The notes beneath the pieces are model-generated. The model searched no databases and had not been told where the DNA came from. It saw only the letters and a program-made list of their open reading frames with translations. A program made the position numbers and the translations under genes. Shown in pieces: positions 4,991 through 64,000 of a stretch of DNA of 64,000 bases (the stretch's first letter is position 1; every line of letters begins with the position of its first letter). The DNA is from Thermococcus peptonophilus (GTDB lineage Archaea; Methanobacteriota_B; Thermococci; Thermococcales; Thermococcaceae). Location: the NCBI RefSeq assembly GCF_001592435.1, contig NZ_CP014750.1, positions 992,001-1,056,000 on the forward strand, given 5' to 3'.

Positions 4991-7900
4991 ATGGCCTGGA
5001 ACGACTGGATAGCGAAGCACCCCAAGATCGTGCTGGCGGCGTGGATAGTCCTCATACTCATCATGGCACCGCTCGCAGGAAAACTGAGCGAGCTTACCGA
5101 CTACAGTACTGAGCAGATGGTGTCCCACGAAATCGAGTCTATCAAAGTCCAGGACATCATGAGTGAGGAATTTTCAAAGGCCCAGAACCCAAACATGACG
5201 TACCTCCTCATCACGAACATCACCGTGAACAACGAGAACGCGAGGAAGGCCTACTATTCTTTTAAAAACCGGGTTGAGGGCAAATACGCCTCCAACGTGA
5301 CATCATACTATGATGCCCTAGACATGCTCTGGGACATGGACTACGAGCTTACCCTCAACATAACTAGAATGACCGCCAACATGACCGGCGTTCTCTACAG
5401 GAGTGTCAAAGGTGCCCAAGACGGCTATGGGACACTGCTGAATCAGCTACTCCTCCTAAAAAACACGACTGATACAATGAAGACCAGCCTCGTTGCGACA
5501 GCTCAGGGGTATCTTGCCCTCAAGAGCAACCTAACGTCCATTTACACCCAGCTCAATATGACTTCAGGACTGCTCCAGATGGCAGATGGCATCTACGTCC
5601 AGCTCTGCACTCAGAACCCGAACATGACAACCCCGGAAAGGACACAGGCACTCCAGAACGAACTGATTGCCAAGCTACCCGAAAGCCAATGGGCCATTGT
5701 TCCTGAGGTTGTGCAGGCGGTTACCTCTGCCGATCCCTACTGCACGGGAACACTCCTCTCCGACAAGGGACTCCTTGAGAACACCACGGTTGAACTCGTA
5801 TACGGCATGATAACGAGTGCCGGAACTTCCTTCCCATTTGAGATTCCCAAGGAGGTTCTCTTCCAGCTCTACGAAAGCGGCGGTGACGAGACTGCAATCG
5901 ACACCATGGCACAGAACATGCTCAAGGCCCAAATAGCAGAGCAGATGAACGGCCTTGCTCCAAGCCCCGAGGCCCTTGCCGATATCATTGTGAGCGAGGT
6001 TGCCAAAGATCCTTATGGGGTAGTAAGCGGTGAAAAGCTCGAGGACGCCACAGTTAGGGTGGTCCTTGCCCTGTCTCCCCAGAAGACGGAGGAAACTGAG
6101 AAGATAGTCAGGGAGCTATACAGCGGTGCCGATCCAAGGGAGCTCGCAAAGGAGCTGTTCATGAGGGGAATGCAGGAGCAGATGAAGAACCAGACGATCC
6201 CAGAGGAGTTCGCTGGAGTTATAAACGACCTCATTGAACAGGTCATCCAGAACTACCCGATGAGTGAGGAGGAACTCGAAGAACTCGTGAAGGACACAGT
6301 TAAGTCCTTGGTATCTGACTACGCCAAAAACAACCCCTATGGGGTTGAACTCAACTTCGACCAGAATCTCCTAGTGGATATCGCCTTCAAGTTCAAGGAC
6401 AACCCCGAGGCAATAACCAGAGAAGATGTCAGGCCCCTGGCTGAAGAGCTCTGGCCCGTCTTTAGGGAAAAGGCCGGAACCTACCTGAGCATGCTGAAGA
6501 GCGACGACAACACGACGCTCCTGATAACGTTTGTCCCGTTCGGAAGGCCCGGCCCGAGCGGTGACGAGTTCAAGTACCTCGCCCAAAACGCGACTGAGGT
6601 CAAGAAGATAGCACTTGAGGAGTTCGGAAAGTACTTCCCGGACGTCAAGGGCGCCCTTGGGGGTACACCCGTCCAGATGCACGAGATGACGGAGTATGGA
6701 GAGAAGGACAACCAAAAGACGAGCCAGGCGAGTATTGTTGGCGCGCTCATTGTGCTCTTCATACTGATGGGTGGGGCCCTGCTGGCTACGTTCCTTCCCT
6801 TCACCGGTGTCGCCACCTCTGCACTCACGGCCCTCGGAATAGCCTACCTCCTGGCCAGGGGAGGCTTCTTGAACATAGGAAGCTGGGCGGAGATGCTGAC
6901 CATAACGACCGCCCTCGGTCTTGGAATTGACTACTCGACCTACTACGTTCACCGCTTCAAGGAGTACATAGCTGAGGGCTACGACCATGAGAAGGCCGTC
7001 GCAGAGGCCCTTAGGAGGGCAAAGGACGCCGTTCTGGCGAGCGCCTTCACCGACATCATAGCCTTCGCCAGCTTCGTTCTGGCATGGGAGTTTCCAATAT
7101 TCCAGCAGATGGGCATAATCGCGCCTCTTGCCGTTGTTACTGTCCTCATAGCGAGTCTTACATTCATTCCCGCAATAACAGCACTCATCGGCGACAAGAG
7201 CTGGTTCTGGTGGCCGAGGCACATAAAGCATATCAAGACCATGGATGTCCACGAGAGGAGCAAAATAGCGGAGTGGGTCATAAAGCATGCCAAAGCCATC
7301 CTGCTCATCGGTCTGCTAATAGCAGTCCCGGCAACATACACGTTCTTCACCTTTGAAGGCACCCATGACATAAGCCTCTTCCTACCAGAGGGCAGTGAGA
7401 CCCTAACCTTCATGCATCTGAGCCAGGAGAAGTTCGGTGCCTCAGTAATGTCCCCTAACTACGTGATCATAGACCTTGGACATAAGATAACCGACGACGA
7501 CCTTAAGCTGATCGACGAGATAACGGGGCATATAGCGGAGATGACTGGCGTCAAGGCAGTCTATTCACCGACGAGGCCGTACGGTGAACCGGTCAGCAAC
7601 CTGACACTGTCGGCCATTAAATCCCTGGGTGGGGAGAGGTTCATCTCAAAGGGAGAGACTATGATCATGATACAGATTGACCCGGTCTACGCTCCAACCG
7701 ACGAGAAGGCAAAGGAGCTCGTCAAGAGCCTCAGAACTTACATGTCCGAACTTGAGAAGGAGGGCAAGATAAAGGAGGGCCTCGTCGGCGGCGGAGCGGC
7801 CCTTTCTATGGATCTCAGCGACAGGATCAGCGACATCTTCTGGCACAGGATAATCCCAGTGGCGCTTGTGCTGATGTTCATATCCCTCATACCAACCCTC

Positions 7901-47039: not shown

Positions 47040-47600
47040 TTAATGTTTTCTACCTCTTTGTCGCCGTTCTTTGTCAATGGCGCGTTTTTTGAGGTGAAGA
47101 TAATTGTCCGCGATCATTATAAGAGTTCTTCTTCTTTTCTCAAGTTTAAGCTTTGAGAAAATGTCATCTTCTTTGCGTACGTCCCCTTCCTGTTTTGCCT
47201 TTATTAATTCTCGCTTAAGCTTCCGAATGCGATTTTTTATGTCCCCCTCTTTGACAAGGGATATCTGAACATCCAGAAATCTGTCTCGCACTGCACTCCA
47301 AAGTCCATCATCCACGATGAGCTCGAGTCCCCACTTTGCGAGATATTCAACGTCCTCCCAGAAGTATTTATCAACTTTCACATAATACTTCACTTCAAGA
47401 GGATACTTTCTTTGAACTTTTTCGAGAGTTGGTTTGAAGTACTCCTTAAGATACTTCTCTCTGTCACCTTCAAGCTCTTTTACATGTTTGATCCCAGAAA
47501 ATTCATCTGTAACTCTCTCAAAATATTCGTAGGGAACACTTACAAGTGCAACTGCCCCAACTTCTTTGTCAATGGCGATTATCAGCGCCTCTTGTTTCAC
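47040..47600 (-). CDS. Hypothetical protein, 186 aa, basic coiled C terminus
   Basis: GTG 47600, preceded by GGTGG, starts a protein whose first 100 residues look alpha/beta (L-I-I-A-I-D-K-E-V-G-A-V-A-L-V-S-V-P-Y-E-Y-F) and whose last 70 are strongly basic and helical (N-R-I-R-K-L-K-R-E-L-I-K-A-K-Q and R-A-I-D-K-E-R-R-Q-R-G-R-K-H). The start with a lone aspartate after a beta strand recalls RNase H-like folds, but I cannot support an assignment. It is divergent from the DUF365 gene and upstream of the methyltransferase on the same strand, with a 246-base gap that holds a TATA-like element but no gene. Confidence 0.5.
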   Translation of the reverse strand: MKQEALIIAIDKEVGAVALVSVPYEYFERVTDEFSGIKHVKELEGDREKYLKEYFKPTLEKVQRKYPLEVKYYVKVDKYFWEDVEYLAKWGLELIVDDGLWSAVRDRFLDVQISLVKEGDIKNRIRKLKRELIKAKQEGDVRKEDDIFSKLKLEKRRRTLIMIADNYLHLKKRAIDKERRQRGRKH

Positions 47601-47691
47601 GCCACAACCCACCAGGTTTAATGAAGTCCTCCTTAAACTCTGGAGCAAATGTGTTTTAAAGATTACAATCCACATTCCATTGGTGAAGCAC

Positions 47692-48138
47692 ATGGAAGAG
47701 AAAATCGTTGGTGTTACATTCCCTGTCCCGAAGTGGTTCCTTGACAGGATTCTTGAAGGGGGCAAAACAGTCTTCGTCAAGCCTTCGACGCTGAGAGTTC
47801 AGCCGGGCATGAAGGTCGTCTTTTACGCCTCCAGGGAAGGCCAGGCCTGGCTCGGGGAGGGCGAGGTTGAGGCGATTGAGCAGTTCACGAACGTGGAGGA
47901 CATCATCAGGAAGTATGGAGATGAGCTTTTCCTCACTCCAAAGGAGCTCAGGCAGTATGAGAAGGAGCGTGAGAGGTGGCACTCTCGCGGGAGAAGGCCG
48001 AGGCCCTGGATGGTTCTCAAGCTGAAGAACGTGCGGAAGTATCCGAAGCCGGTCAAGCCGCCGAGGTTCATCGCCGTCTCTGGAAGGTACGTCAAGGAGA
48101 AGGAGTACAGGGAAATTCTGAGGAAGGCAGGCCTTTGA
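47692..48138 (+). CDS. DUF365 protein (ASCH/PUA-like)
   Basis: The 148-residue protein starts I-V-G-V-T-F-P-V-P-K-W-F-L-D-R-I-L-E-G-G-K-T-V-F-V-K-P and has G-M-K-V-V-F-Y-A-S-R-E-G-Q-A-W-L-G-E-G-E-V, the ASCH/PUA-like barrel of the archaeal DUF365 family. The end reads W-M-V-L-K-L-K-N-V-R-K-Y-P-K-P. RNA or modified-nucleotide binding is probable from the fold; no activity is known. The ATG follows GGTGAAG. An upstream in-frame start at 47566 would overlap the divergent gene and is unlikely. It is an ordinary archaeal family, so it may be part of the original chromosome inside the island. Confidence 0.75.
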   Translation: MEEKIVGVTFPVPKWFLDRILEGGKTVFVKPSTLRVQPGMKVVFYASREGQAWLGEGEVEAIEQFTNVEDIIRKYGDELFLTPKELRQYEKERERWHSRGRRPRPWMVLKLKNVRKYPKPVKPPRFIAVSGRYVKEKEYREILRKAGL

Positions 48139-50779: not shown

Positions 50780-51799
50780 ATGCTCCGTTGGAATACTGTA
50801 AAGGATGTTATTAATCACATCAAAACCACCCAGAATAAAATCCCAAACGAAGAATCCACAAAGCAACATTTGGTGCTACCGATTCTTATGGCTCTCGGCT
50901 GGGATGTCTTTGACCCAGATGAAGTTATGCCAGAGGAGAAAACTGGCGAAGGCCGGCCAGACTACGCTCTTAAGCTGAATGGCAAAACAGTCGCATTCCT
51001 TGAGGTGAAGAGTGTAAAGGAGTGGGTTCTGAGGGATGGCAAAATCCGTATGGGTTACCTCAGACAGCTTGCACGTTACTGTTTTGACCGCGGGGTCCGC
51101 GTGGGAATTCTTACAAATGGCCTCCAGTGGGTGATGATAAAATCATTTGAGCCAGAGAAAGACCTCGAAGAGCGTGTTATTCTCGCCGTTGATTTAAACG
51201 CGCAGGAGCCTTCACGGGCAGCCGAGAGATTAAGGTGGCTGTCAAAAGAGAAAATCAATCAATACAATGAAATTCCTGCGGAATACCGGAAAATACCTCT
51301 CCAGAAACCTCCAGCAGGCATCGAGCCGCCCCATCCAACAGGGGAGATGCACAAATCGAGCACAGGAACCACAAAGTTCAGAACATTGTACGTTACTGCT
51401 TGGGAAGTGGATTTACCGTCTTCTGCGATTGATGTTGACCAGCTGGTAGGGAAAGACCTCAGAGGATACGTTCCCTCCCGCCTCTTCGTAAACTTCAAAG
51501 GAAAATGGCATGAGGTTTCAATTTCTCACGCTGAAAACTGGCCGAGAGCAAGGATTGCGTGGAGTAGCATAACCGCGATGGCAGTAAGGTTCCTTTATGA
51601 TCAGGGCATCAGGGATTTCCCATACGTCGGAAAGTATCTCTCAAAGGAACCTCTTTCCATAAACATACAGTATACGGCAAAGATTGGTGATTGGTACCTT
51701 TATGGTCCTGAAGGTGGCAAGCAGGCTGTCGAAACGCTTCATAAACTCGCAAAACACACTGGTACAAAAATCGCGATTGAACTACAAAAGATCCGGTAA
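50780..51799 (+). CDS. Stand-alone HsdR-N-type (PD-(D/E)xK) nuclease
   Basis: Residues 1-150 match the N-terminal nuclease domain of type I restriction R subunits: E-E-S-T-K-Q-H-L-V-L-P-I-L-M-A-L-G-W-D, then G-R-P-D-Y-A-L (D61) and V-A-F-L-E-V-K-S (E75, K77), followed by R-Q-L-A-R-Y-C-F-D-R-G-V-R-V-G-I-L-T-N-G. No helicase follows; instead residues 185-339 form a second domain with S-T-G-T-T-K-F-R-T-L-Y-V-T-A-W-E-V-D and a small C-terminal part. Such stand-alone proteins occur in defence islands. ATG 50780 follows GGGGGAAG; the gene is 32 bases after its neighbour. A nuclease effector is the best guess. Confidence 0.75.
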   Translation: MLRWNTVKDVINHIKTTQNKIPNEESTKQHLVLPILMALGWDVFDPDEVMPEEKTGEGRPDYALKLNGKTVAFLEVKSVKEWVLRDGKIRMGYLRQLARYCFDRGVRVGILTNGLQWVMIKSFEPEKDLEERVILAVDLNAQEPSRAAERLRWLSKEKINQYNEIPAEYRKIPLQKPPAGIEPPHPTGEMHKSSTGTTKFRTLYVTAWEVDLPSSAIDVDQLVGKDLRGYVPSRLFVNFKGKWHEVSISHAENWPRARIAWSSITAMAVRFLYDQGIRDFPYVGKYLSKEPLSINIQYTAKIGDWYLYGPEGGKQAVETLHKLAKHTGTKIAIELQKIR

Positions 51800-52243
51800 C
51801 TACTCCAGCCGATGTTTTTCCTTCAGCCTTTTTCTCTCAACATCCATCAAGTAGAGTGCCACCATGTCAATTGGGTAATTGGAACGAACGAGCGCCCTTC
51901 GGACTCTTCCATTGTCTTCCTGAATCCGCCTGATTACAATTGGCTCCACAAAGTCCTCATCCTTGTAGATTGATTCCACATCCTCGAATTCATCATTGAG
52001 ATATTCTGCTACCTGCCGGATTTCCCGCGAAACAGTGCCCTTATGCACCTGAAGAATCCCCGAGAGGGCCGCAATGCAGAGTTCTGACTCCGTACAGGGA
52101 GCAGAACATTTGGAGCAGACTCCCCCGTTCTGTCGCAGATATTGTTTCCACTGAGGCGCATCCTCGAGTACGGTAAGATACCGAATGACCTTGTTGGCCT
52201 TTGGGGTCACCAGTATTCGCGGATTAATACGTTCTTTGGCCAT
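51800..52243 (-). CDS. Small protein with cysteine cluster and HTH-like segment
   Basis: From ATG 52243 (GGTGTG upstream) the 147-residue protein has a cysteine group C-S-K-C-S-A-P-C-T-E-S-E-L-C (C-x2-C-x3-C-x5-C), which could bind zinc or an Fe-S cluster. A helix-turn-helix-like stretch follows at once (I-A-A-L-S-G-I-L-Q-V-H-K-G-T-V-S-R-E-I-R-Q-V-A-E-Y-L). The C-terminal part is charged and helical. It looks like a metal- or redox-sensing DNA-binding protein. It lies beside the first copy of the repeated palindrome (52361) and could bind it, which is inference. The stop abuts the convergent HsdR-N gene. Confidence 0.6.
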   Translation of the reverse strand: MAKERINPRILVTPKANKVIRYLTVLEDAPQWKQYLRQNGGVCSKCSAPCTESELCIAALSGILQVHKGTVSREIRQVAEYLNDEFEDVESIYKDEDFVEPIVIRRIQEDNGRVRRALVRSNYPIDMVALYLMDVERKRLKEKHRLE

Positions 52244-52360
52244 CGGACACACCGTTTTTATGAGCCGTGGAAGTGGGTGGTTAAATATTTCGGTTACCTT
52301 CTCGGGGCAGCACGTTCGCGGGAGACTGCCAACCCGAGTATGTTCTTTTTTGTGCATCGT

Positions 52361-52388
52361 CTCGTGTAAACTTTTTGCTTTACACGAG
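52361..52388. repeat. Plasmid palindrome, copy 1
   Basis: Perfect 10-base arms CTCGTGTAAA / TTTACACGAG with an 8-base spacer. It lies just upstream of the cysteine-cluster HTH gene and is the leftmost copy. Confidence 0.85.
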
Positions 52389-52502
52389 GCTCAGTTGAGA
52401 AGCATGATAACACTCAGATGAACCAGGCGCCTACAACCAGAATGTTGATCTTACTCCCAGATACATACTGAATAACATGCTGTGCCCATTCTCAATGCTC
52501 AA

Positions 52503-52781
52503 TTATGTTCGTTGAATAACTGGCAACTGTAGATTAAACAGAAGAATTATTGAAACCAGGCATGCAAAAAGACGGTTTCTCCAGGCTTTTTTCACAGTTT
52601 TCAGGGTTTCGTTTGTGGCAACCCTCATGATTATGAGCAGCATTGTTGGGGTACAAAGGATAAAACCCCACCAGAGAATAAGATAAAAGGCTTTCCCACA
52701 CCAGACCAGTGCGCAGTTCTGTACTCTCATAAAATTTTGACTGCACTTGCCCAGTTGGAGTAACGGCGACCATAATCTCAC
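52503..52781 (-). CDS. Possible small membrane protein, 92 aa
   Basis: The frame from GTG 52781 has two hydrophobic stretches (F-Y-L-I-L-W-W-G-F-I-L-C-T-P-T-M-L-L-I-I-M and L-F-A-C-L-V-S-I-I-L-L-F-N-L) around a basic loop, as a real membrane protein would. I see no clear ribosome-binding site, and the N-terminal part looks non-coding, so a later start (M-R-V-Q-N-C) may apply. It sits between palindrome copies 1 and 2. Confidence 0.3.
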   Translation of the reverse strand: MRLWSPLLQLGKCSQNFMRVQNCALVWCGKAFYLILWWGFILCTPTMLLIIMRVATNETLKTVKKAWRNRLFACLVSIILLFNLQLPVIQRT

Positions 52782-52811
52782 AACAAAAGTTAATCACGTC
52801 GAGCTACTGTT

Positions 52812-52835
52812 CGTGTAAAGCATTCACTTTACACG
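52812..52835. repeat. Plasmid palindrome, copy 2
   Basis: CGTGTAAAG / CTTTACACG arms with a 6-base spacer, that is the common 8-base arms with an 8-base spacer plus one more pair. Confidence 0.85.
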
Positions 52836-53400
52836 GGGAGTTGAGAGATACCAGACATCCCAATGTACACAAATGGGCTCTCATTATTTATACGCCAGAA
52901 GCTTCGGCCATATACTACCAAAGGAGAACTTCCTCTCCCCTCCAGGCCCGCTGGAAAAGGACGAACTTTTTAAAAAAGCTGTTTTGAGTGGGTTTCCCAC
53001 TCTTTGGCTGGCTGGTGAAGGGTTTTGTGGTTTTTTCGTGGTTGAGCGGGTGGCGGGTGTTGGCGGGTTTTTTATGAGACTACGAGTTCTCACGGCCCAG
53101 ATGAGACTTTTTAATTTTCACCGTGTTTTTCCGCCGAAAACGGGCTTTTCCGGGCTTTTTTCACCTTTGCCTTCGGGGTGAATGTACATTGTTGCGATTT
53201 CGTGATTTGGAAAATCGGGTTTAAACGTAAGAATTAATGAAAATGAGCGGGTGAAAAGGAGCGTTCTCCGGGCTTCTTTTTAACTGTGATTTTCCAAAAT
53301 GAAAAATCGAGAGGGTGTTTTTGGGGTTCACGATTTCGCGTTACGGAAAATCGTGGGGTTGGTGGTTATGGAAGCAGCAACTGGCATGGATTCACTCACT
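52836..53400. other. Gene-poor stretch of the integrated plasmid
   Basis: I see no convincing gene. An open frame at 52873-53181 lacks a ribosome-binding site and has low-complexity, G/F-rich translation. A TATA-like TTATTTATAC lies at 52882-52891. Around 53190-53355 the element GATTTTCC/GGAAAATC occurs several times, including CACGATTT / AAATCGTG arms at 53322-53355. Confidence 0.4.
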
Positions 53401-53424
53401 CGTGTAAAGGACTTGGTTTACATG
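53401..53424. repeat. Plasmid palindrome, copy 3
   Basis: CGTGTAAA, 8-base spacer, TTTACATG; one mismatch in the right arm. It begins the longer direct repeat also found near 59241-59345. Confidence 0.7.
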
Positions 53425-53430
53425 CCCCCC

Positions 53431-53481
53431 ACCATCGGAGGGTCTCGTCTTTCTGGGTATTGTTCGGAGGGTCGTGTAAAG
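53431..53481 (+). repeat. 51-bp direct repeat, left copy
   Basis: ACCATCGGAGGGTCTCGTCT... through TCGTGTAAAG is repeated at 59295-59345 with about 43 of 51 bases the same by eye. The two copies bracket the replication genes. A weaker match to its middle lies inside the gene at 60086 (60248-60288). Confidence 0.65.
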
Positions 53482-53497
53482 AGCATTGGATTACATG
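53473..53497. repeat. Plasmid palindrome, copy 4
   Basis: CGTGTAAA, 9-base spacer, ATTACATG; two mismatches and one extra spacer base, so a worn copy. Confidence 0.55.
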
Positions 53498-53501
53498 TCC
53501 T

Positions 53502-53525
53502 CGTGTAAACGGATTGATTGACACG
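53502..53525. repeat. Plasmid palindrome, copy 5
   Basis: CGTGTAAA, 8-base spacer, TTGACACG; one mismatch. Confidence 0.7.
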
Positions 53526-53597
53526 GCGAACGAGGGCGAGAAACGCTTCCGAAGCATTACCATGAGGAGGAAAAGGTTGTTGGAAAACGGCACTTTG

Positions 53598-53621
53598 CGT
53601 GTAAACCTTTCCCTTTACACG
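53598..53621. repeat. Plasmid palindrome, copy 6
   Basis: Perfect CGTGTAAA / TTTACACG arms with spacer CCTTTCCC. Confidence 0.8.
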
Positions 53622-53950
53622 AGATCTCGCTCAGCGGGGAGCACATCATATAAGAAGCCGTTGTTTACTTCTCGGGGAACTCCGGAAGAGTACTCAACCC
53701 CTCTCATGGTGCGGGAATAAAAACAAGCCTACCCGAGCTGGGGGGTTGAGGGCTGGGGACGGGGATAAAAATCTGAGACAAGCACACCCTCAATCCCTCT
53801 CTCACCATATATGTAATCGTTATCGCTTTTTTGGAAATCCCGAGGTGTCCCTTCTCCCCCAGTCATGGTGCGGAATTAAGAATAAAAGCGAGCCCGTTAC
53901 TTATAAGAATTGAAAGATTCATGATCTCTTTGAGTTTTTGAGCTCATGAG

Positions 53951-54021
53951 TTGCCACGGTTGCCAGAGTTGCCAAGGTTGCTGAGGTTGTCGCAGTTGCC
54001 AAAGTTGTCGAGTTGTCCCAC
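53951..54021 (+). repeat. Eight tandem 9-bp iterons (TTGCCANRG)
   Basis: Eight units in head-to-tail order: TTGCCACGG, TTGCCAGAG, TTGCCAAGG, TTGCTGAGG, TTGTCGCAG, TTGCCAAAG, TTGTCGAG and TTGTCCCAC, each nine bases except the seventh (eight). Together with an inverted array at 54138-54171 this is the layout of an iteron-type replication origin, about 600 bases upstream of the primase-polymerase gene. Confidence 0.7.
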
Positions 54022-54137
54022 CAAAAACAACTCCTGCATAATCCCCTCGGAGATCCCTTATCCGTCGAAATAACCATTTCCCCGGACCTTCACCATATTC
54101 CCATTACTGACTCATGCCCCCCACTCTCGGAAAAGTG

Positions 54138-54171
54138 CTGGCAACCTTTGCAACCTTGGCAACCAGCAACC
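54138..54171 (-). repeat. Inverted iteron array (GGTTGCNAR on minus strand)
   Basis: Plus-strand units CTGGCAACC, TTTGCAACC, TTGGCAACC and AGCAACC are the reverse complement of the 53951 iterons. The 116 bases between the arrays are AT/C-rich (TCACCATATTCCC and similar) and could be the opening region. Confidence 0.65.
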
Positions 54172-54234
54172 GCCCGTTATATGGTGGGGAAAACCCGAGG
54201 TAATAAGTAGTGGAGTGCTCACACCCCAGCGGCT

Positions 54235-54258
54235 CGTGTCAATCAAAAGGTTTACACG
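54235..54258. repeat. Plasmid palindrome, copy 7
   Basis: CGTGTCAA, 8-base spacer, TTTACACG; one mismatch in the left arm. It lies about 100 bases before the 54341 gene, close to where its promoter should be. Confidence 0.75.
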
Positions 54259-54340
54259 AAGAAATTTACGGATAAATACGATGACACAGAGATATGTTTA
54301 TATTGTCGCATAATGGGGGCCCCTTTTGTGGTGTGGTATG

Positions 54341-54700
54341 ATGTTGGATGGAATGAATGCTTCAAGTATGGGTGTTCTGGCTCAGGCCAGGGTGGATGGT
54401 AAGGTCTGCAGGGAAAGACGAGGTAGTGCCAATAAAGTGCCATCCTCAATCTCCATCAACTTCTCACGAGAGGTGGAAAGCCTGGTAGGTGGTCTGATTT
54501 CAATGAACATCCTTCCAGTAAGTGCCTCAAGAGCCACCTTCGGCAGAGATGCGGTCGTGTTTGCTCTCGGAAGTTATGATGATGCAATCAGACTCTACGA
54601 GGATGTTGCGGACGGTCGTAGAGCTTACTCAGGCAAAGTGTTGAAGGTGGGGAATCTTGACCCGGTTTACTACAGTAGAACCGGGGGTGAAGCCAGATGA
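54341..54700 (+). CDS. Small plasmid protein upstream of the primase gene, 119 aa
   Basis: The protein, read from ATG 54341 (GGTGTGG upstream; ATG 54338 also possible), has no family I recognise. Residues 30-110 look alpha/beta: S-S-I-S-I-N-F-S-R-E-V-E-S-L-V-G-G-L-I, S-A-S-R-A-T-F-G-R-D-A-V-V-F-A-L-G and D-D-A-I-R-L-Y-E-D-V. Its stop overlaps the primase-polymerase start (ATGA), so all three genes to 59153 form one coupled operon. A role in replication control is plausible from this position only. Confidence 0.55.
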   Translation: MLDGMNASSMGVLAQARVDGKVCRERRGSANKVPSSISINFSREVESLVGGLISMNILPVSASRATFGRDAVVFALGSYDDAIRLYEDVADGRRAYSGKVLKVGNLDPVYYSRTGGEAR

Positions 54701-57441
54701 GTGAACTCACCCCGGGAAAAGTTCTCGCTGATGTTTACAAAGTTATCCAAGACCACCCGGAGGCTGGCAGGCTCGCGATTGAGCTGAGGTTCTACCCGGT
54801 GATTAAGTCCGAGTGGGTGCTCTTGAACGACATTGAGGACAAGGCTCGGGACATTGATAAGGTTCTGGCGAAGCAGAACCTCATTAAGGGGAAGGAAGCG
54901 TATGTGTCAATGGCGATCCACGGTTTTGAGGCGGTTAAGAAGAAGTTGGAGAAGCTCAGGGAGAGTGTTGAGGAGGGGAAGGTTCGCAAGCTCGGGCTTG
55001 AGAACGTGCAGGGCGAGGCGAAGGGGAAGGTTCACCCGACGGTGAGCAACTACACGCTTACGCTGGTCGTGGACGTGGACATTGAGGCAGTTCACAAGTT
55101 GAAGGTTGTTGAGGACGTTGATAAGGTGTTTGAGAAGGCGAAAGAGGGCTGGCTTGCCCTTAAGCCGGTGTTCGAGGAGCTTGGTGTGTTGCCGAGGTAT
55201 GTGTTCTTCACGGGAGGTGGTCTCCAGCTTTGGTTTGTTGCTCCCAAGCTTGAGGATATTGCGGTGATTGACAGGGCGTCAGGCATTGTTCCGAACGTGT
55301 TGAATGCTTTGCTTCCGGAGGGCTTCGTGGTGGACAATATTTTCGACAGGGCGAGGATTGTCAGGGCTCCGCTGACGGTGAACCACAAGTATAAGGCTCC
55401 GAACGGGGCTCGGGTTGGTGTTAAGGGCAGGCTCATTGAGTTCAATGACGTGAGAGTGTCCCTTTCAGAGGTCCTTGATAAGCTTGAGGTGTATGCAAAG
55501 GAGAGGGGTATTCAGTTGGGCGGTCAGGAGAAGGTGAGAGGCGGTCGTGGGTTCGTGAATGTCAGGTATGTGGTTAAGAAGGAAGAGCTGGAGACGTTGG
55601 CTCTCAATCTTGCCGATGAGCTTATTCCTTGGTTTAAGAAGGTCAAGGAGAGAGGCGGGTCTTGGCACCACTTGGTCAATGCCATCGGGGCTTACGTTGT
55701 GAGGAACACGAACCTCTCGCTTGAGGACCTTATTGGGAAGGACAACCCGGACGGCACTCACGTGGTCGGGCTTTGGGAGATTGTGTTCCAGAGGCTCGTG
55801 GAGAAGAGTGCAGAGGATCCGGGTGATTGGGTGAACAGGCGGAATACGATAAAGGACGTTTACGAGAAGCACATTGCAGGTAAGCCGCTCGGCACGAGGG
55901 CTTATCTCAAGAAGTATCTCCCGGTGAGCGATGAGGAGGTTGTTGAGATTTTAATGGCCGTCAGGAGGGCCTTACTACCGTTTTTGAAGGAGGTTAAGAA
56001 GGTTGACTCTTCGGGGTTTGGTGTTGCTCCTTATAAGAAGACGGCCCCAAGGAGCTGGGATGAGGTGGATGAGGACCGGAAGAGGGCTACGGGTCGCTGG
56101 TATGTGTGGAAGCTGGCGTTCAACACGGCGGAGTACCTTTTCACGGACGAGCTCCCCAAGGCGGGCACGTTTTACATTGATGTGTGGATGAAAGAGGGGA
56201 AGCGGGAGTGGATGAAGCGGTTTTTCAATGAGGCTCTCTTCAGGTCGTTCATTGAGGACGGGCTCGGCTACAAGTATGGTGCTCCAGTAGAGAGGGAAGA
56301 ACTCTTCGAGAGGCTCGTGGAAGTATTCAACATCACCGACGAGGAGGTAAGGGGGATTTACATTGACGCAGCCCTCTCGCTCCTCTCTCCAGTAGGCATG
56401 AGGACGCCACCGTGCATTGAGGAGTTCATAATGGAGTTCGCGGCAAACGGCAGTCTTTCAGAGGACAAGGTTCGCCACCTCGCCCGGTGGATTAAGTTGT
56501 ACGCCAAACCGCTCAAGCACTCGACAACTACGACAAAGCTGGTGGGTGCAGGGTATAAGGTAGATATGAGGATGGCGGTTTGGGCGAAGTTGGTCGAGTT
56601 CTTTGCAGAGGACGATGAGGTGGCCAGAGAGCTGGTGAGGGTCTTCAAGGAGGAGTATGGGGCGGCGGAGCCTCCGTTCACGTGCATTGGGACGAAGACT
56701 TGCCAGTTCTACCTTAATGAAAAAATGTGCCCGTTCATAATCCCAAAGGAGAAGGAAATACTCGCGGTGAGCCTCATTGACGTGCAGAGGCACGAGTCCG
56801 ACGGTCTCGTGGTTATTGTCGGTGGGGACAAGGAGGTCAGGACTTTCGTTAAGAAGGGGAATGTCGAGTGGGTGAAAAAGACAGAAAGGAGAGAGAAGTA
56901 TCCGGTTGCGGAGTGGTTCATTGATGTGTTCGCTACGGAGTATCTCAGTGTCTCCCCAGACGACCTCGACGTGGACTTGGAAGAGGTTACAGATATTTTG
57001 AAGAGTAGGGCGAGGGTGGTTAAGAGCCGGCTCAACGAGCTCGAAGACATGTATGAGAAGTTTGTCGAGTGGTTGAAGAGGGAGAATGCGGTAAGGGGTG
57101 TGCTCCCCTACGAGAAGGCGGACTTTAACCACTTGTTCATAAAGGGTAATATGATTGGTATTCCGCCAGCCCTCGCGGAAGAGTTCTACCGATTCGAGTT
57201 GAACATCAAGGGCTCAGAGTTCAGGGAGATGCTTGAGAAGAAGCTTGGTTTCCACTACACGAAGAAGGCCGTAAAGCTGAGTGTGGGTGAGAAGAAGGAC
57301 GTAAGGCGGTGTTATCTCGTAAGCTTGGAGTGGTTCAGGAAGGTGGTGGGAGAGCCGAATGTGAAGGATGTGGTCATGGCAGGTGATATTGCCCTCAGCG
57401 GGCTGGTCTATTATGAGAGCGGCGAGGAGGTGGTTGAATGA
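54697..57441 (+). CDS. pTN2-like primase-polymerase with PriL-type Fe-S domain
   Basis: The 914-residue protein has an archaeo-eukaryotic primase core at about 60-260: the metal-binding V-V-D-V-D (D126, D128), T-G-G-G-L-Q-L-W-F (172-180, in place of the usual s-G-x-G-x-H), and D-N-I-F-D-R-A-R-I-V-R-A-P-L-T. Four cysteines, C573, C663, C669 and C678 (P-P-C, then C-I-G-T-K-T-C and M-C-P-F), reproduce the Fe-S ligand pattern of the PriL C-terminal domain. The fusion and length agree with my memory of the pTN2 plasmid polymerase of T. nautili (a divergent primase of about 920 residues). It is coupled to the upstream gene and to the helicase by ATGA overlaps. It probably initiates plasmid replication. 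Confidence 0.85.
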   Translation: MSELTPGKVLADVYKVIQDHPEAGRLAIELRFYPVIKSEWVLLNDIEDKARDIDKVLAKQNLIKGKEAYVSMAIHGFEAVKKKLEKLRESVEEGKVRKLGLENVQGEAKGKVHPTVSNYTLTLVVDVDIEAVHKLKVVEDVDKVFEKAKEGWLALKPVFEELGVLPRYVFFTGGGLQLWFVAPKLEDIAVIDRASGIVPNVLNALLPEGFVVDNIFDRARIVRAPLTVNHKYKAPNGARVGVKGRLIEFNDVRVSLSEVLDKLEVYAKERGIQLGGQEKVRGGRGFVNVRYVVKKEELETLALNLADELIPWFKKVKERGGSWHHLVNAIGAYVVRNTNLSLEDLIGKDNPDGTHVVGLWEIVFQRLVEKSAEDPGDWVNRRNTIKDVYEKHIAGKPLGTRAYLKKYLPVSDEEVVEILMAVRRALLPFLKEVKKVDSSGFGVAPYKKTAPRSWDEVDEDRKRATGRWYVWKLAFNTAEYLFTDELPKAGTFYIDVWMKEGKREWMKRFFNEALFRSFIEDGLGYKYGAPVEREELFERLVEVFNITDEEVRGIYIDAALSLLSPVGMRTPPCIEEFIMEFAANGSLSEDKVRHLARWIKLYAKPLKHSTTTTKLVGAGYKVDMRMAVWAKLVEFFAEDDEVARELVRVFKEEYGAAEPPFTCIGTKTCQFYLNEKMCPFIIPKEKEILAVSLIDVQRHESDGLVVIVGGDKEVRTFVKKGNVEWVKKTERREKYPVAEWFIDVFATEYLSVSPDDLDVDLEEVTDILKSRARVVKSRLNELEDMYEKFVEWLKRENAVRGVLPYEKADFNHLFIKGNMIGIPPALAEEFYRFELNIKGSEFREMLEKKLGFHYTKKAVKLSVGEKKDVRRCYLVSLEWFRKVVGEPNVKDVVMAGDIALSGLVYYESGEEVVE

Positions 57442-59153
57442 CTGCCTCGGCTCTCCCTTCTACTCCGTATGTTGTCAAGATTTATGGCCCGCCAGGGACT
57501 GGCAAGACGAGAGCTCTTAAGAACCTTGTTGAGTGGATGACAGGAATTAATCCAGAGGTTAAGGAGGAACTGATGGAGAAGGGCTTTCCAGAGGAGTTCT
57601 TGGAAAGTGTGTTCGGGAAGTATGATGTTTCAGAGATTGCGTTCGTTACGTTCCAGAATTCAGCCCTTAAGGAGTTTGTCGAAGAGAGAATCAATATGAG
57701 CCTTGAGGAAGACAGGAGGGCCGGAAAGCCGTTGAGGTATTTCAGGACGGTGCACGGGCTTTGCCAGACGCTCCTTACAGATTTCGAGGTGAGCGATTGG
57801 AAGGTGGTTTCGAGGCGCATGGGTGGACTCGGCCCGGAGAGGTGGTTCCAGATTTTCGCGGCCCAGCAGAGGAAGAAGGACCCGAGCTTCAGGTTCGACC
57901 CGGACGCGATGGGGGCGGCGAACCCGTTTGAGAAGGCGAATTATCTCTGGCAGGTGAAGAGTAGGGTAATAAACAGAGAGTACCACAAACTCGAGGGAGA
58001 GAAGATTCATCTGAGGATTTTGGACGAGCTTCCACCGAGTTTGCACGACCATTATTTCGACTGGTTGATGTTCAAGAAGGAGAAGAGGATAAAGGACTTC
58101 GATGATATGCTGATGGACGCTTATGACGCCCTCAAGGCGGGAGAGATTTATCTCCCAACCAAAGTCCTCATCGTGGACGAGTTTCAGGATTTAAGCCCGC
58201 TCCAGTTCGAGATTTTCAAGATGTTGGCAAGGGATAAGGAGTTGGTAGTCATTGCAGGCGATGATTGGCAGACCATTTTCACATGGATGGGTGCAAGCCC
58301 AGAGTTCCTCATTAATTACCCAGCGGATCTGGAGCTTATGTTAAAGCGGACGTTCAGGTTGCCCGAGAGGGTGCTCAAAAAGGCTCTCAGTTATGCAAAG
58401 GAGAAGCTCAGAAACGGTGTTTACAAGGAGATGGTGAGCACAGGAAAGAGGGGTGCAGTAGGCGGCCTTTATCGGGTTTCGACGAAGAAAGAGGCCGACT
58501 TGGACTTGTTGGCAGGGGTAATCATTGGCGAGTTGAAGAGAGGTCACTCGGTCTTTGTTCTCACGAGGACGAATGCTCAGGCGTTGCACTTTTTCGGCGA
58601 ACTTTACAAGAGGGGGTTCAAGCCGAAGACCCTTAAGAGGTCTTCCCGATGGAAGAAAAGAGTCTCAAAGGTTGGGGATTTCTTTGACGTGATCCATTCA
58701 ATTATTGAGGTAGAAAGCGGGTCCCCAACGAGGGAGGATTTCAAGAGAGTGGCGTGGGTTACAGGTCTTATCTCAGAAGAGGAGTTCGACGAAGACTTGC
58801 CGCTCGTAGAGTATATCAGACCTAATTGGAAGGGGAATATTCAGTTGGATAAAGTTCAGGAGATTTGGGGCAGATTGGCGAAGCGGTTCCTTGAGAAGAT
58901 CATCAATGACGGCATAAAGCCGATGGAGGGCATTCCAGAGGATTACGAGCTTTACGTGGACACAATCCACGCCAGTAAGGGTCGTGAAGCGGATGTAGTG
59001 TTCCTCATTAATGAGATGCCCACCCGGAACTGGAGAAAGTATCTCCGGACGCCAGAGGAGGTCGAAGCGGAAGCTCGCGTATGGTTCGTGGGAATGACGA
59101 GAGCCCGGAAGGGGTTACTTATTATCAACACGGACAAGCCGTTCACTCTTTGA
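57438..59153 (+). CDS. SF1 (UvrD/Rep-like) plasmid helicase
   Basis: The 571-residue helicase has Walker A G-P-P-G-T-G-K-T (17-24), motif II V-D-E-F-Q-D, motif III G-D-D-W-Q-T-I-F-T-W, R-T-F-R-L-P (motif IV region), H-A-S-K-G-R-E-A-D (motif V) and V-G-M-T-R-A-R-K (motif VI). It is shorter than bacterial UvrD, with reduced 1B/2B domains. pTN2-family plasmids pair such a helicase with the primase-polymerase. The ATG lies inside the primase stop (ATGA). Confidence 0.9.
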   Translation: MTASALPSTPYVVKIYGPPGTGKTRALKNLVEWMTGINPEVKEELMEKGFPEEFLESVFGKYDVSEIAFVTFQNSALKEFVEERINMSLEEDRRAGKPLRYFRTVHGLCQTLLTDFEVSDWKVVSRRMGGLGPERWFQIFAAQQRKKDPSFRFDPDAMGAANPFEKANYLWQVKSRVINREYHKLEGEKIHLRILDELPPSLHDHYFDWLMFKKEKRIKDFDDMLMDAYDALKAGEIYLPTKVLIVDEFQDLSPLQFEIFKMLARDKELVVIAGDDWQTIFTWMGASPEFLINYPADLELMLKRTFRLPERVLKKALSYAKEKLRNGVYKEMVSTGKRGAVGGLYRVSTKKEADLDLLAGVIIGELKRGHSVFVLTRTNAQALHFFGELYKRGFKPKTLKRSSRWKKRVSKVGDFFDVIHSIIEVESGSPTREDFKRVAWVTGLISEEEFDEDLPLVEYIRPNWKGNIQLDKVQEIWGRLAKRFLEKIINDGIKPMEGIPEDYELYVDTIHASKGREADVVFLINEMPTRNWRKYLRTPEEVEAEARVWFVGMTRARKGLLIINTDKPFTL

Positions 59154-59201
59154 TCTTTTCTCTCGCGTTTTGTCCCGATTCTCCCACCCCTATGGGGATT
59201 G

Positions 59202-59225
59202 CGTGTAAAGGCAAACGTTTACACG
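59202..59225. repeat. Plasmid palindrome, copy 8
   Basis: Perfect CGTGTAAA / TTTACACG arms with spacer GGCAAACG, about 50 bases after the helicase stop. Confidence 0.8.
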
Positions 59226-59240
59226 TGTACTGGCACGGTT

Positions 59241-59264
59241 CGTGTCAATCGATTGGTTTACACG
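59241..59264. repeat. Plasmid palindrome, copy 9
   Basis: CGTGTCAA, 8-base spacer TCGATTGG, TTTACACG; one mismatch. Confidence 0.75.
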
Positions 59265-59294
59265 CAGGAGTGTTATTTTCTCTCCCCCAGGAGC

Positions 59295-59345
59295 ACCATC
59301 GGATGGCATCGTTTTTCTGTGCATTGTCCGGAGGCTCGTGTAAAG
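59295..59345 (+). repeat. 51-bp direct repeat, right copy
   Basis: It matches 53431-53481 as described there, and both copies end in the left arm of a palindrome. The pair encloses the iterons and the three-gene replication operon. Confidence 0.65.
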
Positions 59346-59360
59346 GCACTGGTTGACACG
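59337..59360. repeat. Plasmid palindrome, copy 10
   Basis: CGTGTAAA, spacer GGCACTGG, TTGACACG; one mismatch. Confidence 0.75.
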
Positions 59361-59516
59361 ATCGCCTCTCCCTGCACCCTCTCCAGTGGAATTAAAGGTT
59401 TTGGTGGCTGAGAATTAACCGTAAATTTTTTAAACGTAAATTTTCATAATATTTAATGCCCGCAACATACGCGGGTGTGTTCGAAAAGGGGAAAAGAGAA
59501 GAGGAGAAAGAACGCG

Positions 59517-59705
59517 TCACTTTACGAACCGACTGATGTCGGGCATCTCCTCGTGGACGGCCCTCTGCATGTAACCCCTCCGCACAGGACCAGCAGCTCC
59601 GGTCCTCACGCGGACGTGCGCCGTCCTGAGGGGCATCTCCTCTGGGGCGAGAAGCCCCATTGCAAACTCGGAGAGTTTGGTTGCACGGTCTCGTAGCCAC
59701 CTCAT
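59517..59705 (-). CDS. Small basic protein, 62 aa
   Basis: GGAGGT lies eight bases before the ATG. The product is rich in arginine (M-R-W-L-R-D-R-A-T-K-L; R-T-A-H-V-R-V-R) with one likely helix at the start. There is no known family and no cysteine cluster. It is transcribed leftward, opposite to the replication operon, and is followed by a short stem CCCGC / GCGGG (59459-59475) that may terminate it. It might be a nucleic-acid-binding accessory protein. Confidence 0.5.
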   Translation of the reverse strand: MRWLRDRATKLSEFAMGLLAPEEMPLRTAHVRVRTGAAGPVRRGYMQRAVHEEMPDISRFVK

Positions 59706-60085
59706 CTTGTCCGACCTCCTTTTTTATTTGCTTCTTCTTCAAAAGAGCCACTTGTTCTGCAAGTCATCGCAAGGGAGTTAAAGGTTTCGATGTGAGGGCC
59801 CTCGTGTAAAGCAATTGGTTTACACGAGTGGGTGTTTACTCGGGCCCGCCGGGAGCTCCCGCCCGATATGCTCGGCAGCTCTTAAGTGTCGAAAATAACT
59901 TTAACCGTAAATTGTTTGACGAAAAACACTCACAATTTTTGACGGGTCTCACGAAAAGCAGGGGGACTCATGAAAACCCCTTGTCAAAATGACGAATGGT
60001 TTGCCTTTTTTGCCCTTTGAGTTATATTTTATTACCCTACCCACTTGTTCCCACTGGAAAAAACGAACGTGGGGGGTGCTGTTGC
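59706..60085. other. Non-coding stretch with palindrome copy 11 and promoter
   Basis: I see no gene here. TTAACCGTAAATT occurs at 59901-59913 and again at 59418-59430, and TTATATTTTATTACC (60022-60036) could serve as the TATA element for the gene at 60086. Confidence 0.5.
59801..59828. repeat. Plasmid palindrome, copy 11
   Basis: Perfect 10-base arms CTCGTGTAAA / TTTACACGAG with spacer GCAATTGG. With copy 1 it is one of two full-length copies, and these are the outermost ones. Confidence 0.85.
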
Positions 60086-60340
60086 ATGCAGGTAGTCAGG
60101 ATCGGGGACCTTACTCAAATGTCCAAGGATGTCGGCAGGATAATGACCCTCAAGTTTATGGACAATTCCGGGAAGAAGTACGAGGCTGTGGTCTTGCTCG
60201 CTGATGAGGAGACAAAGGGCGTTCTCTTGAAGAACGTGGACGAGGGCACTCTCGGTGGGCCTCGTCCTCTCAGGGTATTGTTCGGAAGAAGAAAAAAGAA
60301 CTCGATGGAAGTTATATTTCCCTGGCGGTTTTCCCGATGA
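60086..60340 (+). CDS. Small hypothetical plasmid protein, 84 aa
   Basis: The protein begins M-Q-V-V-R-I-G-D-L-T-Q-M-S-K-D-V-G-R-I-M-T-L-K-F, followed by Y-E-A-V-V-L-L-A-D-E-E-T-K-G-V-L-L, which looks like a small beta-barrel. GGGGGGTG is seven bases upstream. Its 3' part (P-R-P-L-R-V-L-F-G-R-R) is encoded by sequence resembling the 51-bp repeats at 53431 and 59295, so those may be fragments of gene copies. The end overlaps the convergent wHTH gene by 29 bases. Confidence 0.5.
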   Translation: MQVVRIGDLTQMSKDVGRIMTLKFMDNSGKKYEAVVLLADEETKGVLLKNVDEGTLGGPRPLRVLFGRRKKNSMEVIFPWRFSR

Positions 60341-60680
60341 GGGCCAGGGTTTTCTCCAGCATCACTGTCAGCTTTCGAGTAAATTCGTCGCTGAGGATGA
60401 ACGAGCCTTCTTTCCCACGTCCGAGAATACCGAGGGCAAGGAGCTTCTTCAAGGTCCGGTAGTAGTTCTTCTTCTCAGCGGGGCTTTTGTTTGGGCAGAA
60501 GAGAACCCAATCGCTGGGCCAGAGCCGGCCGTTCTCCTTGATATGGGCAATGATTTGCTCGGCAATCTCGGCCTCTTTTGGAGTGAGTAGAACCTCAAGG
60601 ATTGGTTTCTCGTAGAGTTCCACGATGTCTTTGGGGATTTGAATGTTTACGTGGTCCGGGAGCTTTGCCCTTCGGCCCAT
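60312..60680 (-). CDS. Winged-helix DNA-binding protein, 122 aa
   Basis: From ATG 60680 (GGTGGTCCC upstream) the protein has V-L-L-T-P-K-E-A-E-I-A-E-Q-I-I-A-H-I-K, then K-N-Y-Y-R-T-L-K-K-L-L-A-L-G-I-L-G-R-G-K-E-G-S-F-I-L-S-D-E-F, a recognition helix and wing. It starts with a basic R-R-A-K-L segment. The ATG lies 34 bases downstream of the duplicated TATA/inverted-repeat region (60714-60730), so autoregulation is likely. It may be the copy-control or maintenance regulator of the integrated plasmid. Confidence 0.65.
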   Translation of the reverse strand: MGRRAKLPDHVNIQIPKDIVELYEKPILEVLLTPKEAEIAEQIIAHIKENGRLWPSDWVLFCPNKSPAEKKNYYRTLKKLLALGILGRGKEGSFILSDEFTRKLTVMLEKTLALIGKTAREI

Positions 60681-60713
60681 TGGGACCACCTTTTCAGGTT
60701 TGTTACCTCTTTG

Positions 60714-60730
60714 GGTGTATTATATACCTG
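60714..60730 (-). promoter_or_regulatory. TATA/operator half, promoter of the wHTH gene
   Basis: GGTGTATTATATACCTG contains TATATA and is the reverse complement (one difference) of CAGGTATATAACACACC at 60869-60885. On the minus strand it lies at promoter distance from ATG 60680. Confidence 0.6.
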
Positions 60731-60868
60731 TGTGAGTATATAAGTGTTGCTGAGTGGTTGGTTTTGGGTGAGGTGTAGGTACCTGTGTGGGTAGATATTG
60801 GGGGGTGTATGCGGTTTGGGGTAGCTCATTGACCAAAGCCAATCCAAAAAGAATTTTTTCCACCCCAA

Positions 60869-60885
60869 CAGGTATATAACACACC
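60869..60885 (+). promoter_or_regulatory. Second TATA/operator half, facing right
   Basis: It mirrors the 60714-60730 element, with 138 bases between. Copies of CTGTGTG/GGTGTAGGTACCTGTG lie between them. No rightward gene follows directly; the next gene (60925) is convergent, so this may drive a short RNA or be only a binding site. Confidence 0.5.
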
Positions 60886-60924
60886 AAACCACAACAAAAT
60901 GGAGAAGAACGAAAAATGAACCTT

Positions 60925-61608
60925 TCACTTCCCAAGGTAGTCCTGAAGCTCTTGTGCTTTGATCGAGATTGCTGCCCCGTACTCGTCAAAGTTCACAGAC
61001 TTCACGACTGTGAAGGTAATTTCCCCCTTTTCGAGTTTGATGTCAAAGACCCTGCTCGCAATCTCCCTCAGCTCTTGAACACACTCTTCACTGATGACAC
61101 GAGTATTAACGAAAATAATCCCCCAACTCTTCTCATGCCCAATCATGGGACGAGAAACAGTGCCGAGTAAGACTTCAAGGTCCCAAGGGCTCTTGGCCAT
61201 TCTCAAAAGCTTGTCCATCCCCAATCCAACCCTGACAAAGTACTCGTGCTCATTCGCAAGTTGTTCGAGAGTTTTGTGGTACTTGGTTCTCATAACGGCA
61301 GGATCTTCAGTAAGATCGATCTTCCCAAGAACGTTTCTGTCACTTATGATGCCGCCAATTTTTATCACTCTCGCCTCATCGATCAGATCGGTTGGAACTC
61401 CCGCGAACTTCAAGTGGTTCCTGAACATGTGAAGATGGTCCAGCACATCCAAGATAACTACTGGGATGTTCTCTCTCTTTAAGTACCTCAAGATCATATG
61501 TAAGATTAAGTGAATTGGCTCGTCCGAAGTGTACTCAACGAGAACTACCTCGCCCCGCTGGATTGTCTTGAGGTACTCGCCAAGACTCAACTCGAACTTC
61601 TCTGACAT
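60925..61608 (-). CDS. DUF257 family protein
   Basis: The 227-residue protein matches the Thermococcales-specific DUF257 family, a RecA/KaiC-like alpha/beta fold without a Walker A: G-E-V-V-L-V-E-Y-T-S-D-E-P-I-H-L-I, I-P-V-V-I-L-D-V-L-D, V-I-K-I-G-G and W-G-I-I-F-V-N-T-R-V-I. No activity is known. ATG 61608 follows GGGGAGAG; an in-frame start at 61668 lacks a signal. It marks the return to chromosomal sequence, although DUF257 genes also lie near mobile regions. Confidence 0.8.
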   Translation of the reverse strand: MSEKFELSLGEYLKTIQRGEVVLVEYTSDEPIHLILHMILRYLKRENIPVVILDVLDHLHMFRNHLKFAGVPTDLIDEARVIKIGGIISDRNVLGKIDLTEDPAVMRTKYHKTLEQLANEHEYFVRVGLGMDKLLRMAKSPWDLEVLLGTVSRPMIGHEKSWGIIFVNTRVISEECVQELREIASRVFDIKLEKGEITFTVVKSVNFDEYGAAISIKAQELQDYLGK

Positions 61609-62543: not shown

Positions 62544-64000
62544 TTACGAGCCGAAGAACTCGTCCAGGCTTATGCCCCTCTTTTTCTTCTTTTTGGGCTT
62601 CTTATCTTCAGCCTTCTTAGCGCTCTCGGCCGTTTCTCTTATCTGCCCCTTCTTAGCGGCCGCTTCGAAACTGGTAAGAGCCTTGACCTTCCCTGAGCGC
62701 TTTAGCTTTTCTTCCTCTTTCTTTTTCGCGGGTTCTTTGTCTTTTCCAGAGGGTTTTGAGGCCAAACTCCTAGACTTTTTGCCAGCTTTTCCGTTCTTTC
62801 CGTTGAACTCGTCGAGGTAGCCGTTCCTCCCGTTGGAATGGCCGGTTCTCTCCTTGATCATCCTCTCGCAGATGTCAGCCGAAAAGCCCATGAGGGTCCT
62901 CTGCCTCTCCGGAAAGATGTTCTCGAAGAGCGTTTTTATGTCCTTCTCGGTTATGCATATCCTCTGCCTCGTGTAGTCCTTGACGTTATACTTCGTAACG
63001 AGCATCTTGGCCGTGGGCAGGTACTTCTCTATGGCTCCTTTGCTGACGGTGAGGACTATCTTTCCGCCGCACTTGGGGCACTTACCGGCTAAGGGCGGCC
63101 TCCGGTATTTGGTGTTGCACTTTACACATCTGAACTCCTGCCTCGTGAAGCTCCTCAGGTTGCCTCTAAGGTCTGGAACGAGGTGGGAGTTGATAATGGT
63201 CTCAGCCACGTGGTGCTCATCAACGGCCCTTATGCGCTCCGCCAGAGCGAGCTGTCTGGCGACCTTCTCCTCCATGTCGCCGAGCTGTTTGTACAGGCTC
63301 ATCTTCGGGCCGAGACCGATATCATCTGTGTCGTGGGTGAACTTTATCCCCTCGTACATCTCGGGCTTTCCTAAGCGGTCCTCAACCCTTTCGATGACCT
63401 TCACTTCTTTTGGAGACTTCAGCTCGTATGTGGCCTTGTAAAACTCGAGAGGATAGTACCTCACAACGTCCATGTTGTGGACCTCGCTGTCGACTTCCCT
63501 CGGGTCAAGACGGGTGGTAACGACCAGAGGGGCATCCATCTTTCCGCCGCGCTTTTCTGGGAGATAGTACTTGCTGAAATTGAGGAGGGCGTCGAGGAGG
63601 AGCATAACGGCGTCTTCGTCGCCGTCACAATTGCGTCTTTTTGCGGCGTGGTAATACGGGTGTGCATAGCCAACGAGAACGTCTGAAAAGCCGATTATCC
63701 TCCCAATGATTCCAGCCGAGGTGTGTGGAGCAAGACCTATGACGAGGTGACCCACAAGGTCTTCCATCTTCTCGGCGTTGTAGAACCTCGGCAGGCCGTA
63801 GAACTTCTCGAGGAGGTCATCAATGAAGCGAGCAACCTTGAGTAAGTATCTCCCAGCCTCGTAGGGTAGAATAACGTCCTGGACCTTCAGCTCGAGTATC
63901 TGGTCGTCCCTCTCGAGGGGCTTGCCCTCGAAGTCGTGAGTGTAGCCGAGCCCCTTCAGTTTCTCAACGCTAGTTCCTATCTCCTTCGGCTTGAAGTGGG
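62544..64000 (-). CDS. polC: DNA polymerase II large subunit DP2, C-terminal part
   Basis: The frame is open to the right edge, so the 5' part of the gene lies outside. The visible 485 or so residues include the end of the polymerase domain ([20 protein letters not shown], with the catalytic acidic residues), a zinc ribbon (F-R-C-V-K-C ... K-C-P-K-C-G-G), a lysine-rich linker and a PCNA-binding PIP box near the terminus (I-S-L-D-E-F-F-G-S). DP2 with DP1 forms polymerase D, the replicative enzyme of Euryarchaeota. No intein is visible in this part. Confidence 0.96.

Follow-up and report, generated by a model that had tools for sequence, protein, structure and literature searches.

Two opposed arrays of short iterons in the genome of Thermococcus peptonophilus very probably form the iteron portion of a replication origin of the pTN2 type, as judged by comparison with related plasmids; they are most likely read by the winged-helix domain at the C-terminus of a PolpTN2-type primase-polymerase whose gene lies just downstream. 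The arrays lie within the 64,000-nucleotide stretch of DNA that we analyzed (the window), and their architecture recurs throughout the pTN2/pEXT9a plasmid family; between two of these plasmids the units of both arrays have changed in concert, and in this one natural case the primase winged helix has changed as well. We consider it probable that the element's origin has these arrays as the part to which its initiator binds, with the winged helix of the primase as the most likely protein to bind them.

The left array (53950-54020, plus strand), identified by direct reading, step count and self-match at lag 9, consists of eight direct units of the type GTTGYYN, which read in order GTTGCCACG, GTTGCCAGA, GTTGCCAAG, GTTGCTGAG, GTTGTCGCA, GTTGCCAAA, GTTGTCGA and GTTGTCCCA at steps of 9, 9, 9, 9, 9, 9 and 8 bp. 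The right array (54137-54170, minus strand), also read directly, holds four inverted units, which from 54170 down to 54137 run GTTGCTG, GTTGCCAAG, GTTGCAAAG and GTTGCCAGC at steps of 7, 9 and 9 bp, and the two enclose a spacer of 116 bp (54021-54136; 51% AT), a candidate opening region that is not AT-rich. The original prediction, made from this sequence alone, had described eight direct and four inverted units flanking 116 bases, which direct reading and shuffle scores bear out; its consensus TTGCCANRG captured a genuine repeat in too strict a wording, as TTGCCA occurs in only about half of the units and GTTGYYN fits better. The array pair is far beyond chance: the left array is the maximum of 9-bp self-match in the 64-kb window (38/54, against at most 30 in 60 shuffles), and the paired opposed-array score of the element is 60, compared with no more than 49 in 100 dinucleotide-preserving shuffles (z ~10) and with 47-50 for control segments of chromosome within this window. 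Among 94 genomes of the host's family, the triple-unit word GTTGCCANNGTTGCCANNGTTGC occurs in two, in the window element and in a sister element in genome G016. An Rfam search of 51000-61500 returned no match at the gathering score. A diverged tandem duplication (53644-53726 and 53803-53885, 159-bp spacing) with CATATA-like boxes lies in the left flank.

As the original prediction had it, the arrays stand upstream of a primase-polymerase/helicase operon, whose products we identify as a PolpTN2-like primase and an SF1 helicase. The primase-polymerase gene (54697-57441, plus strand; 914 aa) has an intact open frame, and its product is 52-59% identical to the primases of pTN2, pP12-1 and pCIR10, with D126/D128 and cysteines C573, C663, C669 and C678 invariant in the alignment. 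Its C-terminal winged-helix region, the proposed iteron reader (57103-57351, plus strand), was placed by alignment to the winged-helix region of PolpTN2 and by a low-confidence model; the AlphaFold prediction of the C-terminus (pLDDT 43, poor) gives the order helix-strand-helix-helix-hairpin, which is not at odds with a winged helix. A PDB sequence search with the primase found no relative, nor did scans of viral contigs and genome contigs. The helicase (SF1, UvrD-like; 57438-59153, plus strand; 571 aa; Pfam UvrD-helicase 5e-23) is 64-72% identical to the helicases of pTN2-like plasmids, and a domain search identified no sequence-specific DNA-binding domain in it. Ahead of the primase gene lie a TATA-like GTTTATATTG (54296-54305, plus strand), which by its sequence is a putative rep-operon promoter, and a 124-aa ORF (54326-54700, plus strand) that is 98% identical in G016; by eye this ORF has a weak ribbon-helix-helix (RHH) look, for which neither profile search nor fold prediction (AlphaFold pLDDT 33, too poor) gave support.

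We analyzed whole the eight plasmids with primase matches: pTN2, pP12-1, pCIR10, pEXT9a, pAMT7, pMETVU01, pIRI33 and pIRI48. In each of these pTN2/pEXT9a-family plasmids, and in G016, two opposed arrays of 8-10-bp iterons are the best-scoring such feature, and the pair sits upstream of the primase-helicase operon in G016 as in 8/8 plasmids. The plasmids score 63-77 against shuffle maxima of 47-52 and the G016 element 57 against 47; opposed arrays, with scores of 57-77, are present in 10/10 replicons with a pTN2/pEXT9a-type operon (window, G016 and the eight plasmids). The step is about 9 bp in 7/8 plasmids and 10 bp in pIRI48, whose primase aligns to that of the window over its N-terminal half only. 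The array word is GTTGCCA in the window and G016, CTTGTCA in pCIR10 and pP12-1, GTGGYYR in pTN2, ACCCCA in pEXT9a, pAMT7 and pMETVU01, CTACR in pIRI33 and GTTAACCGAT in pIRI48; although the words differ between plasmids, the right array of any one replicon is the inverse counterpart of its left array. The window shows the same module, with inverted arrays of 8-10-bp units, no more than about 300 bp in extent, before the operon. The original prediction knew of no pTN2-type origin of this form and proposed a search of related plasmids for homologous arrays; these are present in all eight, and the opposed layout proves to be the rule in the family. Its reading of the segment as a likely origin is thereby supported, since the family-wide arrays occur where an origin has been predicted in print for several plasmids (Krupovic et al., 2013; PMC3543421). 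The more distant G089 and G011 elements have no clean opposed arrays, and at lag 9 the available part of pTBMP1 (G086:C2) reaches no score above 51. Plasmid pMETVU01 (L009) carries two opposed-array modules, at 4403-4565 and 4746-4900, with different words and similar flanks (CCTAATAG ... CTATTAGG).

BLAST and MAFFT comparison with G016:C1 revealed that the block containing the arrays (53502-54258) is inverted there relative to the rep operon (G016:C1:22559-23376 compared with window 53430-54268), with breakpoints inside CGTGTAAA-type palindromes at both block ends. The inversion keeps the arrays and leaves the TATA-like GTTTATATTG outside the inverted block, a configuration that an orientation-independent origin fits better than does an operator acting at a fixed distance. 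Identity between the window and G016 is 100% in the right array, 98% in the right flank, 94% in the spacer and 89-93% in the left flank, and the G016 left array is without one irregular unit. The helicases are 99.5% identical and the primases 86%, a contrast that suggests recent exchange within the operon. The G016 replicon lies inside a 30-kb insertion at tRNA-His (G016:C1, about 6776-37512) that has a 3' tRNA duplication and an overlapping integrase gene, integrases having been recognised by eye and not by profile. Also present on this insertion are a type I restriction-like system and a pair of genes resembling those of tyrosine integrases, one of which starts in the tRNA copy.

A comparison of two plasmids bears on which protein reads the iterons. 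The first module of pMETVU01 is homologous to the sole module of pIRI33 (80% identity across 262 bp), and between them unit position 5, a purine in pIRI33 and C in pMETVU01, differs in 12/12 units across both arrays, while positions 3 and 4 differ in 0/12; such an in-step change across two inverted arrays is expected if one shared protein reads all units. In an alignment of the four pEXT9a-type primases (pEXT9a, pAMT7, pMETVU01 and pIRI33), those of pIRI33 and pMETVU01 keep an identity of 93-100% in each window of 30 columns over columns 121-480 and drop to 67% at columns 511-540, where pMETVU01 is still 93% identical to pEXT9a and pAMT7. From column 121 on, 13/16 of the differences found in pIRI33 only fall in columns 498-548, a stretch of 51 residues in the winged-helix region (Fisher p ~3e-12; 0/20,000 random placements as tight), a region that was chosen after seeing the data in a co-variation carried by one plasmid. 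The three ACCCCA plasmids thus share their primase winged-helix region, and the CTACR plasmid pIRI33 departs from them there. Synonymous change is also raised in this segment of pIRI33, which was therefore probably exchanged as a block rather than altered by stepwise selection. The second module of pMETVU01 has CTACC units, yet its primase carries a winged helix of the ACCCCA type, which means that a single reader does not account for all modules. Of the homologous genes found, only those for primase and helicase accompany the arrays in every replicon. The fuller proposal, that the primase-polymerase is its own origin-recognition protein, that its winged helix reads the 9-bp iterons and that word and winged helix change together, we regard as evenly poised. 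Stand-alone copies of the primase winged helix occur just upstream of the primase in pAMT7 (L008; 6196-6453) and pMETVU01 (5174-5542); they match it with E ~9e-17, have a very similar GYTTQKLxRDLRKL helix and might regulate copy number.

Other proteins could account for the arrays, either as readers of an origin or in a different role. Were the helicase, a stand-alone winged-helix protein, the product of gene 3 or the small ORF before the primase to read them, the arrays would still be an origin, and the stand-alone paralogues of the primase winged helix, the two array modules of pMETVU01 and the presence of gene 3 (coiled-coil plus wHTH) in 8/8 plasmids all lend something to this reading. We think it unlikely, because apart from the helicase, which has no identified sequence-specific DNA-binding domain, no such candidate was detected in all array-bearing replicons; for gene 3, phmmer with gene-3 proteins found nothing at a meaningful E-value in the window or the G016 element, both of which keep the arrays. 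A role in autoregulation or partition rather than initiation, with the arrays as operator or centromere for an RHH protein, appears less likely still. RHH proteins wind along short tandem repeats, plasmid omega and ParG proteins binding heptad repeats, and in pCIR10, pP12-1, pIRI48, pIRI33 and pEXT9a an RHH-like gene is found a short way downstream of the arrays. An RHH gene should then accompany the arrays wherever they occur, but none was detected in pAMT7 or pMETVU01, which bear arrays of the pEXT9a type (ACCCCA); in addition, the block in G016 lies the other way round with respect to the putative rep promoter, and the array word changes along with the winged helix of the primase. As the RHH gene and gene 3 each go undetected in some array-bearing replicons, both fail as readers by occurrence.

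A third class of explanation concerns the arrays themselves. Nine base pairs make three codons, and short ORFs would give tripeptide repeats; a minus-strand ORF (53919-54077) does run TTLATATTSATLATLATVATH through the left array. This reading is barely credible and we rejected it, since steps of 7, 8 and 10 bp contradict a frame in most replicons; moreover, we saw no common ORF or strand, the same units also occur inverted, and the architecture persists although the words vary. A host Orc1/Cdc6-ORB origin was likewise rejected: TTCCASTGGAA is absent from the window, and cdc6 lies with the chromosomal oriC. We find it doubtful, if less so than the readings above, that the arrays of the integrated copy are the remains of an origin that has ceased to fire. 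The spacer without AT richness, the failure to find an integrase homologue or att copies beside the element, the missing gene 3 and the chromosomal oriC only about 16 kb away would agree with decay, but the operon frames are intact, the right array and spacer match G016 more closely than does the left flank, and the one-unit loss in G016 is ordinary iteron slippage. We retain the reading of the arrays as the initiator-binding part of an origin, with the primase winged helix as its candidate reader.

The original prediction had also called the element an integrated plasmid, which is borne out only in part. The pTN2-like replication module stands: a PolpTN2-like primase-polymerase adjoins an SF1 helicase. 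The search beside the element found neither an integrase homologue nor an att duplication, with no convincing repeat and only a 15-residue tRNA-overlap match at tRNA-His. Gene 3 was tested for and not found, and we accordingly assign to the element a pTN2-like replication module but do not count it among the pTN2-family plasmids. The chromosome of G016 holds a truncated remnant of the element's 185-aa ORF (51800-52357) where the window's left junction would fall, which suggests an older insertion at that position. A minus-strand ORF at 47040-47780 shares 63% identity with a gene of pP12-1, and genes of plasmid origin may thus reach further left than 51.8 kb. To the right, the element adjoins the DP2/DP1/cdc6 cluster (62544-63767 and beyond the window, genome 1060699-1062853); the chromosomal oriC, with its ORB-like TTCCASTGGAA repeats, is about 16 kb right of the element, and cdc6 lies with it, about 14-16 kb to the right.

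From this anatomy we infer a course of initiation in which many copies of one sequence-specific protein would occupy the 9-bp units, facing opposite ways on the two arrays, and probably bring the arrays together around the spacer. The DNA would be opened in the spacer or next to it, and the SF1 helicase would be loaded. With the primase winged helix as reader, one enzyme would select the start site as well as carry out priming and polymerisation. The spacer is 62-78% AT in the eight plasmids, a common feature of these that is not known to be essential, and 51% in the window and 52% in G016, against an average of 50% for the window element. As the spacers of the window and G016 are not AT-rich, they do not mark an obvious place of opening; either the DNA opens elsewhere, for example in an AT-rich stretch left of 53950, or this lineage uses another mode, or the integrated copy is decaying. 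The GC-skew profile of the integrated copy has no clear minimum at the arrays.

The proposed origin resembles known systems in part. Bacterial iteron theta plasmids carry tandem repeats of about 20 bp by the gene of a RepA/RepE-type initiator, and the segment described here would work like such an origin, with tandem short repeats adjoining an initiator gene; it differs in its 9-bp units, its two opposed arrays and its candidate initiator, a primase-polymerase. In archaeal Orc1/Cdc6-ORB origins, inverted initiator sites flank a central stretch and are read by winged-helix proteins, a likeness that extends to the inverted sites, the central stretch and the candidate winged-helix reader here, whereas the window has no ORB-like TTCCASTGGAA and cdc6 is chromosomal. 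In the origins of SaPI and SCCmec, a helicase reads the iterons (PMC7581432). Those mobile-element origins share with ours short iterons and, as the candidate reader here, the C-terminal domain of an adjoining replication protein; in contrast to the helicase there, we propose the primase, and the proteins and layout are unrelated.

Soler et al. in 2010 reportedly gave the first prediction of the pTN2 and pP12-1 origins, and may describe repeats. Krupovic et al. (2013) predicted origins for several plasmids at this location from cumulative GC skew and unspecified repeats, in the same intergenic place before the primase-helicase operon where we find the arrays; the passages of that paper on these origins neither describe opposed 9-bp arrays nor name a reader (PMC3543421). 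The location of the origin was thus predicted before, and the shared array anatomy and the candidate reader are the new parts. A C-terminal winged helix has been predicted in PolpTN2, with the speculation that it recognizes the origin (Kazlauskas et al., 2018; PMC5862659), and the biochemistry of PolpTN2 leaves site-specific initiation unexplained (Gill et al., 2014; PMC3973330). The window primase is a full-length relative of PolpTN2; where the sections of those two papers on PolpTN2 give no DNA target, we offer a set of iterons and a natural co-variation. Given an iteron anatomy that spans the family, a specific candidate for the reader and a natural case in which word and reader have changed together, the question of how replication by PolpTN2 comes to start at one site (PMC3973330) becomes testable. 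If our proposal is true, swapping a segment of about 50 residues together with a short DNA block could create new incompatibility groups, and the exchange of word and reader suggests how plasmids of the pTN2/pEXT9a type could escape incompatibility. Such small modular origins could also serve vectors in Thermococcus and Methanocaldococcus.

Further repeats accompany the element and its relatives. Nine exact 24-bp palindromes of the form CGTGTMAA-N8-TTKACACG (0 expected) are scattered over 52363-59826, with none elsewhere in the 1.9-Mb genome; the first occupies 52363-52386 and the remaining eight start at 52812, 53502, 53598, 54235, 59202, 59241, 59337 and 59803. One of them abuts the start of the 185-aa ORF (51800-52357, minus strand), which has a weak HTH match and is likely a regulator of the element; a search of the 94 genomes found this ORF only here and in G016, with one further, weak match in G086. 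The palindromes may serve this regulator as operators, or the origin block as sites of recombination. The same type occurs eleven times in the G016 element and once in G077, upstream of an RHH-like gene. In pEXT9a (L007), additional dispersed TACCCCAAATTTACCCCATAATT-like sites lie at 7385-7730, between the origin and the RHH gene, and are possibly sites of incompatibility or autoregulation.
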